Shown here piece by piece: positions 11,462-32,416 of a DNA stretch of 64,000 nucleotides. Made by a program: the position numbers and the translations under genes. The notes below the pieces were generated by a model that ran no database searches, was not told the DNA's origin, and saw nothing but the letters and a program-made list of their open reading frames with translations. The DNA lies in NCBI GenBank assembly GCA_026003195.1, contig BPGU01000002.1, positions 1,054,001 to 1,118,000 of the forward strand, read 5' to 3'. Position 1 is the stretch's first letter. Each line of letters begins with the position of its first letter. Source of the stretch: Armatimonadota bacterium. GTDB lineage: Bacteria; Armatimonadota; HRBIN16.

Positions 11462-13210
11462 TTATATCAGATAGCGGGAAGGGGAGGCAATTCCACCCGG
11501 CAGAACCCTTTGCAGGAGGCTTTCAGCATCCACTTCCGCAGCACGCACGATTGTCGCAGTGGCGAGAAGAGGATAACGCTTTTGAACTTCCTCTATCCGT
11601 TCATGCCTCACCACCCACACCATCGCCTGGGGGGCATCGGTCTGTAAGCGATGCAATACCGGCGCCCATCCGTCACCGCGTAGTTCCAGAGGTCCCACCT
11701 CGTCCACAAAGAGCAACTGCACCTTCTCCGCCATCGCCGATTCCAGAGCCTGCCTTCCGAAGGCGATCCCCTCGGGATCAAACGAAAACGCCCCCGTCCG
11801 AACCGCCTCTGCTTGCTCAGACCGTCGGGCAAGCACACGCTCTTCGCCCGAAAGCAGGTCCCTGACCCAGTACATATCCCGTTGCCCATTGCTCCAGCGA
11901 CCGGGAGAGACGATGCCTCCCACCCTCCATCCGGCACGACGCGCATGTTCCGCCAGAGCGAGGCAAAGAGTGGTTTTTCCCTCGCCGCGCGCGCCGGTGA
12001 GTATCACCCGGCGTGCTTCCAGACGCTCCTGCCACTTGTCAACGAGCTGAAAAAGGCGCGCCAGCGTGCCCACTGGCTCACGTACCACGTCTCTCAGGTT
12101 CGGAATGTTCGCGAGGAAGTCGGGCAAGGCTCGAAAAGCGGATTGCACCGCCACCTGCACCACCGCCAAACGCCCTCGCGACAGCAGGCGCAGAATACGC
12201 GGATGGCTCAGCTCCACACCGATGCCTGCGAACAGAACCACCAGCAGCACCGCCCGCACAGCCATCTGCGCGCCCGCCTGCAGCCCCTTCGCTGCGTCTC
12301 CACCGGCTGCCCCCAGCACCAGCCCGGAGAGCACACTCACCAGAAGCATCTCCCCCCACAGACGGGGATTTTTCAGCCTTCCGGCTATCCGGCGATAGCG
12401 GAAGAATATCGCTGCAGTAACCGCAGCGACCACAGGCACGACGATGGAAAGCGCAACCGCCCCCACGAACCACAATCCCACCGGCAGAGCCATGCACCAC
12501 ACGCCCAGTAACGGAAGCGAGCGACGGAACTCTGCACTGCCTTGCACAGGCTGGGGCGGTGCGCTCTCTACCTGGGGGATACGCCCTGAGGTGCCTGCCA
12601 GTCTCTTCTTCACCTGCCTGCCTACGTACCAGCCGGCAAGCCCCGCCGTGATGCCCAGAGCGCTCTGTATCGCCACCAGCGCGAGCAGCACACTGGCAGG
12701 CTGCCAGCCCTGCCAGCCCGTTCGCTGAGAGGCGAACTGCAAGAGCGCAGTGAACACGCGCATCAGGTCGACGCCGTAGAGGATGGTTAAGGAAACAATC
12801 TTCTGCAGCAGGGTATAGCTCACCGCCAGCGCGCCGCCCACCGCACATCCCAGCCAGCTCCGCCCCAGCAACCGCAAGGAGATGTGCAGGATTACTCCTT
12901 CGACGAAGATGCCAATCATCGGGCTGAGCAGAACTGCACTTGGCGATATCGCCTTCATCAGTGCACACACCAGCGCCGTTCGCCAGATAAGCCCCCTGTC
13001 TGTCCATACTTGCGCGGCAGCCGTCACCAGAAAAACGCTTGCCGTCGCCATGATCGTCCCGGCGAAGGGCACGCGCAGATTGTGCAGGAAACTGCCCACC
13101 ACAATCTCCAGTGCTGCCCACAGGCTACCCAGCGCAGCAGCGCGACTCCATACGCTGATTGCCTGTGGCAGAGGCTGGATGTTGCTGCGGCGTTGTTGGG
13201 ATTGTGTCAC
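11462..13210 (-). CDS. Polytopic membrane protein fused to a THEP1-type NTPase domain
   Basis: 582 residues in three blocks. Residues about 15-200 hold some six hydrophobic segments reminiscent of ECF-transporter substrate-binding (S) subunits. Residues about 240-390 hold a second hydrophobic block with a pattern loosely like EcfT transmembrane subunits, including an amphipathic stretch after ILRLLSRG. Residues about 400-575 are a P-loop NTPase of the THEP1 family: Walker A GARGEGKTT (about 406-414) and Walker B with the family signature FVDEVGPLEL (about 502). The family hydrolyses nucleoside triphosphates, but its role fused to a membrane channel is unknown. I chose the GTG at 13210 because GGGGGG lies 8 bases upstream; ATGs at 13228 and 13261 are alternatives. 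The S/T likeness is an inference from hydropathy and spacing. Confidence 0.65.
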   Translation of the reverse strand: MTQSQQRRSNIQPLPQAISVWSRAAALGSLWAALEIVVGSFLHNLRVPFAGTIMATASVFLVTAAAQVWTDRGLIWRTALVCALMKAISPSAVLLSPMIGIFVEGVILHISLRLLGRSWLGCAVGGALAVSYTLLQKIVSLTILYGVDLMRVFTALLQFASQRTGWQGWQPASVLLALVAIQSALGITAGLAGWYVGRQVKKRLAGTSGRIPQVESAPPQPVQGSAEFRRSLPLLGVWCMALPVGLWFVGAVALSIVVPVVAAVTAAIFFRYRRIAGRLKNPRLWGEMLLVSVLSGLVLGAAGGDAAKGLQAGAQMAVRAVLLVVLFAGIGVELSHPRILRLLSRGRLAVVQVAVQSAFRALPDFLANIPNLRDVVREPVGTLARLFQLVDKWQERLEARRVILTGARGEGKTTLCLALAEHARRAGWRVGGIVSPGRWSNGQRDMYWVRDLLSGEERVLARRSEQAEAVRTGAFSFDPEGIAFGRQALESAMAEKVQLLFVDEVGPLELRGDGWAPVLHRLQTDAPQAMVWVVRHERIEEVQKRYPLLATATIVRAAEVDAESLLQRVLPGGIASPSRYLI

Positions 13211-13513: not shown

Positions 13514-14263
13514 CTCGTTTTGAAGAAGATAAGCCCCCCAAAATTAGTGGTTTTCTTGCTAAGTGATTGATATTGGACGCCCATGACTGATGCCGAACCC
13601 GCCCATTACAGGAAGCTGTTCCTGAGGTCGCTTCTTCCACACATAAGGATGGCGATAAGCATTCCAATACTCTACGGCAGCATACAACGCCTCAGCCATT
13701 TCATCCAAGATCTCAAAACGCCTCCCTTTGAGTGCCAGAGATTTTAACTGCTTCCACCAAGGCTCAATCCAATTCAGCCAACAGTCATATTGGGGATGGC
13801 CGAGTCGGACAAATGCACCCCCTCGCGTTCCTCAAAAGCCCGCTGCAGACCTTCCAGTGTCCACAACTTGAACGGATACCCTAGCGTGTCGGGCTCTTTT
13901 GCAGCGCCAGGCTCATCAAAGCACTGCGCACTGCTTGGCTGTGCACCGGTCTGCGACCACTGCGCTTCTTGTCTTGCAGACCTGCAAGACCCCCCTCGTT
14001 GAAGCGGCGCACCCCAAAAACACCCGTGGTCGGGCTGCGACAGCCGACCCGCTTTGCCGCTTCGCAAGCATACCGTTCCGGATGATCCATCATCAAGGCG
14101 TATGAGGCGGGCGCGCTGCACCAGGCGGAACGGTTGAATGCGCGAAGCTGTCAATCGTCGGATTTGGGATCTCTCTTCGGTGGTCAATGGGCGTAGTTTG
14201 ACTGGTTGTCGCATCTCTTTCTCCTGCTCAAGTATGAGGAGACTATACCAGATTCTTAACGAG
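13514..14263 (-). mobile_element. Decayed IS630-family element
   Basis: The element contains the broken transposase described separately. The candidate ends are CTCGTTTTGAAGAAG at 13514 and, on the other strand, CTCGTTAAGAATC ending at 14263. They match only partly, so the boundaries are approximate. At about 750 bp it is shorter than a usual IS630 (1.0-1.2 kb), in line with an internal deletion. Confidence 0.4.
13559..14214 (-). pseudogene. IS630-family transposase, frameshifted and internally deleted
   Basis: The start MRQPVKLRPLTTEERSQIRR and the following helix-turn-helix region are recognisable, but reading switches frame near 14,105 (continuing as [17 protein letters not shown]) and again near 13,900. 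The frame then jumps from the linker ([13 protein letters not shown]) almost directly to the C-terminal catalytic block ([13 protein letters not shown]) with its Glu, so the middle catalytic Asp residues are missing. It ends with [14 protein letters not shown] and a stop at 13559. It cannot encode an active enzyme. Confidence 0.8.
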
Positions 14264-14593
14264 AAAAACATTATCTACGCTATATATTTTACCTTATCTT
14301 ATTCGTTATGTAACAAGTGATGCCCTGCTTCTAAAGAGGTTTAGCACTTCGTCTGCCTGATTGTTTGGTAGCGACAGGATAGCAACGCCCCCCTGTCATT
14401 CTCTGCGAAGCGAAGAGTCTCACTGTATAGACACTTGGAGATGCTTCGCTGCCCCCCGACAGGACAGGATTCGTTCGCTCCACCTGAAAAAGCAACATCA
14501 GCATTGCAAGAGAGAGCCTTGACGAACTCACTGAGCAGCATTCTAGGTTCTCCCAATGTCCGCCCCTGAGGCTTCTCCCAACAGATTTTGAGG
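14264..14593. repeat. Gene-free stretch: AT-rich tract and decayed repeat
   Basis: 14,264-14,310 is AT-rich (tatatattttaccttatc). From about 14,330 to 14,570 follows a composite of repeat-like pieces (ctgcgaagcgaagagtctc, ggagatgcttcgctg) similar in style to those at 1,395 and 13,430. No gene is supported. The ispH promoter begins directly after it. Confidence 0.4.
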
Positions 14594-19630: not shown

Positions 19631-20209
19631 CTACGACTCCCCCCGCTTCCCCTTGACGATTCTTGCCAGACTGAGCAGCTTCGAACTGATGGTCAGGTGT
19701 GCCCGCTGAGCCGCATCGAGGTTCACCTCGAAGCGTATCCGGTTCTGCTCCACAAAGAAGCCTATCGTACCGCCTTTGGCGGCGAAGTTTTCGCTTTCTC
19801 CGACCAGCAACACGGGGGCATCGCCGAGTATCTCCAGAATGCGAGGCAGGTTTTTGCTTTCCGCCTCCGGTACGAACACAATATGGCATTCTCGGAGCTC
19901 TTGTCCCAAGCCCACCTGTTTGACCACAATAGCTCTTCCCTTCACGTTTTTGCCCCGCACTGCCTGCTGCAGCGCACTCAGGATATTTCCCTTACCCAGC
20001 ACGCCGATGATGAGCGGAGCTTGAGAGCTGGAAAACGCAGCGGGCGGATACTCCACGTAACCCGTGAAGTGGTAGAGGAAAGCAGCTTTCACCTCCGTTT
20101 CGTTATAGCCCAGTGCGAGCGCTAGCGCCAGCGGCAGCACGACAATCGCTACCGCCACCACCTTTTGCACGGTGGAGGCGTGACACCGCCTGCCCTCTAC
20201 CACTGCCAT
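19631..20209 (-). CDS. YfiR/DUF4154-family periplasmic protein
   Basis: 192 residues. An N-terminal hydrophobic export segment (VAVAIVVLPLALALALG) is followed by the DUF4154 opening EVKAAFLYHFTGYVEYP and by later GKNVKGRAIVV and VLLVGESENFAAKGGTIGF. In Pseudomonas YfiR is a periplasmic repressor of the membrane diguanylate cyclase YfiN. I chose the ATG at 20209 because GGAGAG lies 5 bases upstream; it overlaps the end of the receptor gene by 13 bases. A frame to 20257 exists. The position between a receptor and a kinase suggests a periplasmic signal relay. Confidence 0.82.
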   Translation of the reverse strand: MAVVEGRRCHASTVQKVVAVAIVVLPLALALALGYNETEVKAAFLYHFTGYVEYPPAAFSSSQAPLIIGVLGKGNILSALQQAVRGKNVKGRAIVVKQVGLGQELRECHIVFVPEAESKNLPRILEILGDAPVLLVGESENFAAKGGTIGFFVEQNRIRFEVNLDAAQRAHLTISSKLLSLARIVKGKRGES

Positions 20210-22203
20210 GACACTCTCCCATACACTGCTCGCTGGGGGATGCTGTCGCGCTCCCACAGCGGGTGCTCGAACTCACGGATGTCGCGTTTGAGCAGGTTTT
20301 GCAAAGTGAGGCTCATGTTCACCCTGTCCGTTACATGCCAGCTGATGGAGACATCGAGGCGGTAATAGCTGGGCAGGAAGTTCATCCCAAACAGCCTGTC
20401 TACGAAGAAAAGATAGGCATCCAGGTGCCATCCACGGGGCAGTTTGAGATGCGATGTCACCTGAAACTGGTGCCTTGGTGTGTTGCTGGTGCTATCACTG
20501 TGCAAGTTGAACGGGTCCTTGCTGTCCGGGGCATGCTGCAACCGGTACGTGATGTTCGCATAGCCGAGGTCGAGTGTCCAGTAGTGGGTGACGTTCCAGC
20601 GGGCGGAGACCTCAAAACCATAGGTGCGTCCGTACGTCTTGTTGCTCATGTACACCGGCAGTATCAGGTGCGGGACAGGTGAGGTTTCCAGGAACGGGTC
20701 TGCGGGCTCGAAGCTGCGCAAGTTTCTGTACACGTTGTAGAACGCCGAGATATCCAGCGACAGATTGTGGTGAGGTTGAGAGCGATAACCCAGTTCGTAG
20801 GCGGTGACCTCTTCGGAGCGAAAGTCAGGGCTGCCGTAGATGCGCGAAAACATCGGCAACCCACTTACCCTTCCCTCATAGTAGGCATCGATGGCGATAG
20901 AACGCTCGGCACGGGTAGGCATGCGCACCGCACGCGATATCGCCCCCCACCACACGCTCTTTTCGTTCGGCTTCCACAGCAGGCGCAGGTTGGGTTGTAT
21001 CTCCCACGCGGTGTAGCTGTTGTTCTCCAACTTCGAGCCGATGGTCAAGCGAGTGCTATCGTTCAGGGTGATGTCGTCCTGTATGAACGCTCCGAACACA
21101 CGGTCTGTTTTGCTGGATGGGGTCAGCTGCATCAGCGTGCCACTGGTTTTATCGGCAGTGTGCTTGTACTCTATCCCCCACAGCAGGTCGTGCGTTTTGC
21201 CCGTTTGTATGCGTTGCTGCCAGTTCACATTGAGGGTATCGCGCACCTCGCTCAGTTCTATGGGTGAGCGGGCAGAATGGTCGTAGTAGATATGCAGGGT
21301 ATCGGTGCTGTTGCCTCTCTGGCGGTTCCATGTGCCCATCAGGTAGTAGCCGGAGATGGTGTAGCGGTCATCGATAACACGAGCGCCGGGTAGACTGGGG
21401 TCGGGGATCCTCAATCTTTGTCCCACACGCCCGGTGTACACCTCACCGTGCAGGGAGAACCCCTCGTTTTCGGAGCGTTTCCAGTCCGCACGAAAGCCAC
21501 TGCGTCGCACCAGCCAGCTGTCGTTGTTGCGGACGTAATCCCTGTCCTGTTCCAGGTCGTCTCGCTCTTGATAGAGCGTATACACCCGGTAGTATGCCTG
21601 GTCGCCCAGCTTACCGCCCACGCGCCATCCACCGAAGGCTTTCTCTTCACCTCCGCCACCTGCCACCCACAGCGTTCCCTGAGTGTCCTTTGCGGATTTG
21701 GTGATGATGTTGATGACGCCGTTCACCGCATTTGCCCCCCACAGTGCCGCGCCGGGTCCGCGAATGACCTCGATGCGCTCGATGTCCTGCAGGAATAACG
21801 GAGGCTGTGCATCCCAGTAGACACCCGAGAAGAACGGGGTATAGATACTGCGACCGTCGATGAGCACGAGCAGCTTGTTGGAGTAGCGTCCGTTGAATCC
21901 GCGTACCGCCACTGCCCATTTGTTGGCGTCGATGATACCCACATGCACGCCGGGTACCAGGCGCAGAACCTCGGGAACGCTGGTTGCACCCATGCGGTAG
22001 ATGTCCTCTGCGGTAATCACATACACCGAGGCAGGTACGTCCCGCACCGGCTGTGCCTTCTTGGAGGCAGTTACGACCTCTATCTGCATGAGTTCTTCGA
22101 TACTCATCTGAGTGAGGTCTTGAGGTGTGGACGAGGGATCGCCGTAGGCTGCGGCTACAGCGAATGCCCAGAGGGAAACCCAGAAGACCGGGATGAAACG
22201 CAT
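20197..22203 (-). CDS. TonB-dependent outer-membrane receptor
   Basis: 668 residues. A signal peptide (MRFIPVFWVSLWAFAVAAA) is followed by an N-terminal MSIEELMQIEVVTASKK as seen in many TonB receptors. The plug domain about 45-160 has VPEVLRLVPGVHVG, LVLIDGRSIYTP and IEVIRGPGAALWGANA. The rest is a 22-strand-type barrel ending in an aromatic residue (SWQW). No clear substrate signature is visible. The ATG at 22203 has AGGAAGGGG upstream and gives a clean signal peptide, unlike the longer frame to 22275. It is the first gene of the four-gene signalling run, so its ligand may be what that run senses. Confidence 0.92.
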   Translation of the reverse strand: MRFIPVFWVSLWAFAVAAAYGDPSSTPQDLTQMSIEELMQIEVVTASKKAQPVRDVPASVYVITAEDIYRMGATSVPEVLRLVPGVHVGIIDANKWAVAVRGFNGRYSNKLLVLIDGRSIYTPFFSGVYWDAQPPLFLQDIERIEVIRGPGAALWGANAVNGVINIITKSAKDTQGTLWVAGGGGEEKAFGGWRVGGKLGDQAYYRVYTLYQERDDLEQDRDYVRNNDSWLVRRSGFRADWKRSENEGFSLHGEVYTGRVGQRLRIPDPSLPGARVIDDRYTISGYYLMGTWNRQRGNSTDTLHIYYDHSARSPIELSEVRDTLNVNWQQRIQTGKTHDLLWGIEYKHTADKTSGTLMQLTPSSKTDRVFGAFIQDDITLNDSTRLTIGSKLENNSYTAWEIQPNLRLLWKPNEKSVWWGAISRAVRMPTRAERSIAIDAYYEGRVSGLPMFSRIYGSPDFRSEEVTAYELGYRSQPHHNLSLDISAFYNVYRNLRSFEPADPFLETSPVPHLILPVYMSNKTYGRTYGFEVSARWNVTHYWTLDLGYANITYRLQHAPDSKDPFNLHSDSTSNTPRHQFQVTSHLKLPRGWHLDAYLFFVDRLFGMNFLPSYYRLDVSISWHVTDRVNMSLTLQNLLKRDIREFEHPLWERDSIPQRAVYGRVSWQW

Positions 22204-22299
22204 TGCCGAATTTCCCCTTCCTGTGCCGAGATAATTCTGATATTCATTTTCGGCAGAATGGGGAGCATGCTTCACTGGTAAGAAATGGTGATTGCTCCC

Positions 22300-31260: not shown

Positions 31261-32288
31261 CTGAGGCTGTTCGAAAAATCGGTGAGTATCGGGTATAAAA
31301 CATACTATGAAACACACACACTTCAGACAAACTACCCTCGCCACCATACGGGTACGCACCATTTACAGCCTTGTCCTGCGCTTTTGCCAACTCCACCCTC
31401 TCCCCAAACGACGCGGACGACCCTGCAAATACTCCGAAGCCCTCATCCTCACCCTCTGGCTGCTTGCCGTGCGCGAAAACGCCTCCTACCGACGCCTGCT
31501 TTTTGCGCTTGCCCCCGAAATCCTGCCCGACCACCCCCTGCCTGCCTTAGGCACGCTCGCCTACCGCTTGCAGCATCTTGCAGACAAACGCCTGCAACAA
31601 CTGCTCCATTGGCTTGCCCAGCAGGGCATGGCGTCAGAGACACTGACCTGTGAAACGCCGTGTGTGTTTGTGGATGGCACGGGCGTGGGATATGCCTCGC
31701 CGTTTTTCGCGCAGTATTTGCGAGGGGCACAGATACGTCAGCAGCGTTCGCATGTGAAGGTGGTGGCGTTGGTGTATTGGCAGGGGGGTCGGGCGTGGGT
31801 GATAGGGTTATCGTGTGGGGCGGCGTATGCGGATGAGGGGCGGCTGTTGGGGGAGTGGGTGGAGCGGTATGGTCGTGGTGGGTTGGGGTCTGGCACTTTG
31901 TTGGTGGGAGACAGGTTGTATGGGTATCGGGCGCGATTGTTGAAGCAGTTGGAGGAGGCGGGTTGGTTGCCTGTGGCGCGTGTGGAGGCAGGGTTGCATC
32001 AGCAGGTGCGTGCGGATGCGCGGTTGCGTGCGCGTTTGCGTGCGGAGGTGTATGGTTGGGCGTTGGGGGAGCGTTATCGGATAGAGCAGGTGTTTGGGAG
32101 CGTGAAGAGTGCGTATGGGAGCGTGTGGCGAGCGCGTTCGTGGGAGGGTGCGCGGGTATGGGTGTGGGGGATGTTTGTGCTATGGAACATGGTGGGTTTG
32201 GTGCGTGTGCTTGGAGATGGTTCTGATGGTTTTATTGTATGTTGTGTGTGGGTGAGGGGGGGCTGGGTGATTTTTCGAACACCCTCAG
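31261..32288 (+). mobile_element. Insertion sequence with 20-bp inverted ends (IS4/IS5-like DDE type)
   Basis: The ends are CTGAGGCTGTTCGAAAAATC (31261-31280) and, on the other strand, CTGAGGGTGTTCGAAAAATC (32288-32269), identical at 19 of 20 positions. Both ends are flanked by the 5-base direct repeat GGTAC (31256-31260 and 32289-32293), a likely target duplication. The 1,028-bp element carries one transposase frame and looks intact. It sits between rplU and the PII-like gene. Confidence 0.85.
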
Positions 32289-32416
32289 GGTACCTGAGGG
32301 TGCTTGGAAAAAGGCTCTTCATGGGGCAGACGCACAGGTCTGCCCTACAGGAGGCGTGTTGGTTGTGGGTGTGGGTGGTCTACGCGATTTTCCGAGCCCC
32401 TTCCGACATCCGTTGA
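31307..32416 (+). CDS. Transposase, DDE type
   Basis: 369 codons. The catalytic triad is plausible as D in CVFVDGTGVGYA, D in LLVGDRLYGYRA and E in RYRIEQVFGSVKSAYG, with the Y-x2-R/E-type tail region typical of DDE transposases related to IS4/IS5. TATAAA lies 7 bases before the ATG and no Shine-Dalgarno sequence is seen. The frame has no stop inside the element: it crosses the right inverted end and continues 128 bases into flanking DNA to a TGA at 32414. The first 320 bases are C-rich on this strand and the rest strongly G/T-rich. Confidence 0.85.
   Translation: MKHTHFRQTTLATIRVRTIYSLVLRFCQLHPLPKRRGRPCKYSEALILTLWLLAVRENASYRRLLFALAPEILPDHPLPALGTLAYRLQHLADKRLQQLLHWLAQQGMASETLTCETPCVFVDGTGVGYASPFFAQYLRGAQIRQQRSHVKVVALVYWQGGRAWVIGLSCGAAYADEGRLLGEWVERYGRGGLGSGTLLVGDRLYGYRARLLKQLEEAGWLPVARVEAGLHQQVRADARLRARLRAEVYGWALGERYRIEQVFGSVKSAYGSVWRARSWEGARVWVWGMFVLWNMVGLVRVLGDGSDGFIVCCVWVRGGWVIFRTPSGYLRVLGKRLFMGQTHRSALQEACWLWVWVVYAIFRAPSDIR
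32294..32405. mobile_element. MITE-like remnant adjoining the insertion sequence
   Basis: Directly after the GGTAC duplication starts CTGAGGGTGCTTGGAAAAAG, matching the left end of the neighbouring element at about 14 of 20 positions. About 110 bases later GATTTTCCGAGCCCCTTCCG matches the right end in inverse orientation at about 14 of 20. Between them lies a perfect 8-bp hairpin (GGGCAGAC / GTCTGCCC at 32324-32345). It has no coding capacity of its own. Confidence 0.5.

Follow-up and report, generated by a model that had tools for sequence, protein, structure and literature searches.

We suggest that a 582-residue protein encoded by an Armatimonadota bacterium is an ECF-derived, ABC-free uptake protein for molybdenum cofactor, molybdopterin or molybdate, accompanied by its customary THEP1-like partner. 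We put the probability of this reading at about 0.5. We rank Mo-molybdopterin or molybdopterin, obtained by salvage from other cells, as the likeliest solute, and molybdate second.

Domain anatomy of the fusion protein

The gene occupies 11462..13210 on the minus strand of the window (the whole 64-kb stretch of DNA analysed), with a GTG start at 13210 and a stop codon that ends at 11462, in a contig of 1.2 Mb. The ORF is a real, conserved gene: identity is 68–73% in three other congeners and 50–52% in three Bryobacteraceae MAGs. The fusion is found in four of the ten genomes of its genus, in other Armatimonadota and in Acidobacteriota, and the possibility that it is confined to a single assembly, raised in an earlier note on this DNA, was rejected by the relatives in congeners and Bryobacteraceae. 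That note had described two hydrophobic blocks and a P-loop domain with the motifs GARGEGKTT and FVDEVGPLEL; hydrophobic segments indeed span residues ~20–196 and ~230–340, and both motifs are present. The resulting anatomy of an S-type domain, a T-type domain and an NTPase is well supported, and we hold it with high confidence.

Residues 1–395 gave no Pfam or NCBIfam match, and a PDB sequence search with the membrane part was also empty. When a profile built from this part (A2) was run against the genomes of 291 Armatimonadota and 396 Acidobacteriota, it retrieved fused and unfused relatives in both phyla. Unfused relatives of block 1 (residues 15–205; 12596..13168, minus strand) are about 200 residues long; in G079–G081, G265, G270, G285 and G538 they share an operon with an EcfT and a double-ABC protein (EcfA-A′). 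The window-type S domain aligned with these operon S proteins at an hhalign probability of 99.8% (E 3.5e-29; hhalign E-values are those of single comparisons), with column-shuffled controls at ≤0.2% and the reversed set at 2.9%. In the membrane region the full-length model, built on a shallow alignment, was of too poor quality to be used, so the S block was modelled alone. The sole confident PDB match of this model (mean pLDDT 74; the only good one of five) was the ECF S-component 5edl (prob 1.00, TM 0.55); YkoE, represented by 5edl, has the S fold nearest to that of the fusion. The window S domain has no Pfam match to the YkoE family PF09819, for which one relative scored 23.0 against a gathering score of 25.2. 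The earlier suggestion that block 1 is S-type is borne out by homology to true ECF operons and by the predicted fold, and membrane folds unlike EcfS/EcfT did not appear, the S-block model fitting the S fold. By homology and modelled fold, block 1 is a predicted ECF S-component. Residues E35, H43 and K86 of the membrane part are conserved.

Block 2 (residues 228–395; 12026..12529, minus strand) is T-type, as had also been proposed: the window-type block aligned with EcfT of relatives at 96.4% (E 1e-9), with shuffled and reversed controls at ≤2.9%. Three T proteins tested from the relatives' operons exceeded the cut-off of PF02361 (CbiQ), and the T protein of G079 had no Pfam match. The block is truncated before the second coupling helix and lacks the cytosolic region that bears the arginine motifs for ABC coupling, so that it does not carry the two coupling helices with X-R-X motifs by which a T-component of an ECF transporter is recognised. 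Both the assembly of ECF complexes and their ATPase activity require the X-R-X motifs of T (PMC6828968). Across loci, T retains both Arg-containing coupling helices where EcfAA′ is present and is truncated or missing where EcfAA′ is absent; at the S-T-NTPase loci the second coupling helix is missing and EcfAA′ was not found. Neither the window nor the fused loci contain an EcfA/EcfA′ ABC ATPase, which the split operons do have, and the only related set in the bacterium's own genome is a separate CbiMNQ with CbiO. In that set, CbiM-N-Q form one 636-residue chain adjoining CbiO (L148, 4646–7370, minus strand), which is kept in all ten genus genomes searched.

The THEP1-like NTPase domain (residues 400–567; 11510..12013, minus strand) accounts for all Pfam matches above cut-off, which are PF03266 NTPase_1 (residues 401–545, E 3.6e-18, 66.4 bits against a gathering score of 23.9), the related DUF2478 and, marginally, AAA_28. 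It contains the Walker A motif GARGEGKTT (residues 406–414; 11969..11995) and, within FVDEVGPLEL (residues 501–510; 11681..11710), Walker B with a putative catalytic Glu whose role would be that of aaTHEP1 E107 (PMC1079890). In the full-length model, THEP1 1ye8 and human 2i3b were the only PDB matches of this domain under E 0.001. The domain thus shares with aaTHEP1 and the human HCR-NTPase a RecA-type fold, Walker A and Walker B with its Glu. The THEP1 enzymes known so far are small and soluble, whereas the NTPase of the fusion is joined to membrane domains, falls in a separate clade and stays below the THEP1 equivalog of NCBIfam (NF010248; 65.2 bits against a curated cut-off of 156). A tree of 58 NTPase domains separated ordinary Armatimonadota THEP1 from S-linked ones by a 100/99 branch; L032, labelled S-linked inside the ordinary clade, is an ordinary THEP1 barely over the score threshold. 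The window-type and Bryobacteraceae NTPases group together (support 97/89), suggesting that genes were transferred across phyla. Among the S-linked clade we also observed an NTPase fused to an Rrf2-type regulator (L054, 5704–6783, minus strand).

Architectures across genomes and the role of the NTPase

The domains recur in six arrangements. The NTPase is a separate gene beside EcfAA′, S and T in G079, G080, G081 and G538, and is fused to T beside EcfAA′ and S in G437, G587, G667 and G673. An S-T fusion with a separate NTPase gene occurs in G422, G573 and G662, and in G300 with the NTPase in an adjacent frame. The one-chain S-T-NTPase form is that of the window genus, Bryobacteraceae, G179, G355, G555, G589 and G649. 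An NTPase-S-short T order is seen in G123, G136, G142, G149, G153, G183 and G184, while G306, G309 and G569 have S and the NTPase but neither T nor ABC. The commonest core among these loci is therefore S together with the distinct THEP1-like clade, with the ABC and T parts optional, which argues against the NTPase being a mere stand-in for the ABC ATPases. That the same THEP1-like protein accompanies complete EcfA-A′/S/T operons, four-gene operons with their own ABC ATPases, likewise disfavours plain substitution and makes it more likely a partner of S.

These arrangements bear on the proposal that the NTPase is a motor that took over from the ABC ATPases and drives the S and T domains directly. 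Fused loci have lost the ABC genes along with the coupling region of T, and nine Armatimonadota f12 fusion genomes contain no CbiQ-type T protein, an absence that also makes it unlikely that the fusion in these nine relies on another EcfT. We nevertheless consider a motor unlikely, as the NTPase also accompanies complete EcfAA′-S-T operons and S occurs with the NTPase where there is no T at all. A role in handling or trapping the substrate fits the presence of the NTPase beside complete ECF operons better.

In the uptake reading that we prefer, the S domain would pick up the solute on the outer side of the membrane and carry it across, held by the shortened T domain. On the inner side, the THEP1-like domain could then spend NTP on freeing the solute, modifying it or trapping it, a step that would precede MobA or insertion chaperones.

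Such a protein shares with ECF transporters (EcfS/EcfT/EcfAA′) an S-type domain, by fold and homology, and a T-type domain, and its relatives sit in real EcfAA′-S-T operons. It differs in being one chain, in lacking the second coupling helix and arginine motif of T, in having no EcfA nearby and in the added THEP1-like NTPase. BioY and BtuM are solitary S-components that work without an ABC module. The fusion resembles them as an S-type protein free of that module but retains a T remnant and a dedicated NTPase. The family would present an ECF transporter in the course of shedding its ABC motor.

Molybdenum genes, cofactor synthesis and the solute

On the same strand, the fusion is followed at its 3′ side by TPR, nadK and recN genes, an arrangement not kept in congeners, and a shared operon was rejected as incidental on that ground. 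The 64-kb window holds no Rfam riboswitch and no molybdenum genes near the fusion. A TonB-dependent receptor-like gene (20197–22275, minus strand) neighbours two-component genes at a distance of about 7 kb, and no evidence ties it to the fusion. Transposase-like ORFs were seen at 13774–14271 and 31307–32416, the latter with a near copy elsewhere in the same genome (L161, 3096–3620).

The earlier note had found little hint of a substrate. This no longer holds once fusion relatives are surveyed across genomes for pathway genes, since their neighbours are molybdenum-cofactor genes. MobA lies beside S relatives in G079–G081, G386, G623 and G361, MocA-like genes in G437 (overlapping) and G589, FdhD in G285 and G361, and MOSC in G123 and G136. 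XDH subunits, XdhC and DUF364 are neighbours in G306 and G569, XDH in G521, and XDH genes follow S in G404. These neighbours recur across both Armatimonadota and Acidobacteriota. In 13 of 46 genomes, MobA-like PF12804 was found no more than 5 kb from S, against 0.9 expected; these 46 genomes are not independent lineages. Directly upstream of the fusion in three Bryobacteraceae is a TonB receptor. We link the S/fusion family to Mo-enzyme metabolism with high confidence. Two loci (L138 and L140) show an operon of an XDH-type Mo hydroxylase, S, DUF4213-DUF364, XdhC and the THEP1-like NTPase, with XdhC not called in L138.

The same neighbourhood could be read as that of a membrane sensor or chaperone that transports nothing, in which an S-type receptor signals cofactor status through the NTPase or passes the cofactor to Mo-enzymes. 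S and NTPase do lie inside Mo-enzyme operons beside XdhC, and S-component folds serve as receptors in 5TMR histidine kinases (PMC11109136); the links to EcfAA′-T transport operons and TonB receptors speak against it, and we regard this reading as quite improbable.

A further signal comes from genomes that keep Mo-enzymes and have lost cofactor synthesis. The genus has four fusion carriers (G000, G002, G007 and G008), and three of them, the bacterium's own genome included, lack MoaC and MoeA (G000, 100% complete; G002; G008) and retain MobA and one molybdopterin oxidoreductase, whereas MoaC, MoeA and XDH are present in all six fusion-less congeners; these absence counts rest on MAGs, which are incomplete. 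Against this, the fusion occurs alongside both MoeA and MoaC in G007 (77% complete), as it does in the majority of genomes of Armatimonadota family f12. The gene order metG-mobA-moaC-rng of fusion-less G005 corresponds to metG-mobA-rng in G002, where moaC is absent and the mobA-rng gap is 10 bp; in G000 and G008 the MobA match adjoins rng on one contig. At the individual loci, moaC was missing beside mobA/rng in fusion-bearing congeners (L161, L162 and L165) and present in a fusion-less one (L163).

Among Armatimonadota with a strong PF01568 match, MoeA was missing in 7 of 15 S genomes against 14 of 138 others (p 0.001, uncorrected), an enrichment that weakens when counted by genus by hand (~3/9 against 12/95). 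Simple co-occurrence of MoeA with S was rejected, MoeA being frequently absent rather than enriched. In Acidobacteriota, counting S-bearing genomes only, the XDH-type Mo enzyme (PF02738) is present in 27 of 27 and MoaC is missing in 14 of 27.

These losses help to weigh the possibility that the chain imports molybdate or tungstate, supplying the metal oxyanion to Mo-enzyme cells with the NTPase helping to load or sense it. The neighbourhood of Mo-enzyme and cofactor genes suits this, as do two features of some operons, a ModE-like HTH gene and DUF364, whose putative role is heavy-metal chelation. We find it rather unlikely, in that metal would not by itself rescue genomes without MoaC and MoeA, and known S-components of the same fold bind organic vitamins (5edl). 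ModABC, WtpABC and TupABC importers would likewise serve Mo-enzyme cells, but their fold is unrelated, and the fusion has no binding protein or ABC subunit. Since metal alone cannot replace the missing synthesis, uptake of cofactor or molybdopterin is plausible and is favoured over molybdate.

According to the prevailing view, as set out in a recent paper, any cell that needs Mo-cofactor has to synthesise it de novo; the same paper asks how the cofactor passes through membranes (PMC9793310). Our literature search found no Mo-linked ECF, no THEP1-ECF fusion and no bacterial Mo-cofactor importer. We tentatively raise the possibility that the fusion is the first such importer of Mo-cofactor or molybdopterin, a one-chain, ECF-derived and ABC-free machine in which a THEP1-like NTPase would trap or drive the substrate and which would let cells drop synthesis and keep their Mo-enzymes. 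The family supplies a specific candidate gene, offers a natural experiment in congeners with and without the fusion, and ties a THEP1-like subfamily to a pathway. The THEP1 parent family has no known function (PMC1079890), and if the importer proposal is true the fold would gain its first pathway.

As a separate observation, ordinary THEP1 is fused to a MobA-like domain in two Armatimonadota, G265 and G270 (L050, 6789–8090; L052, 1770–2933), both of which also carry an unfused S/ECF operon.
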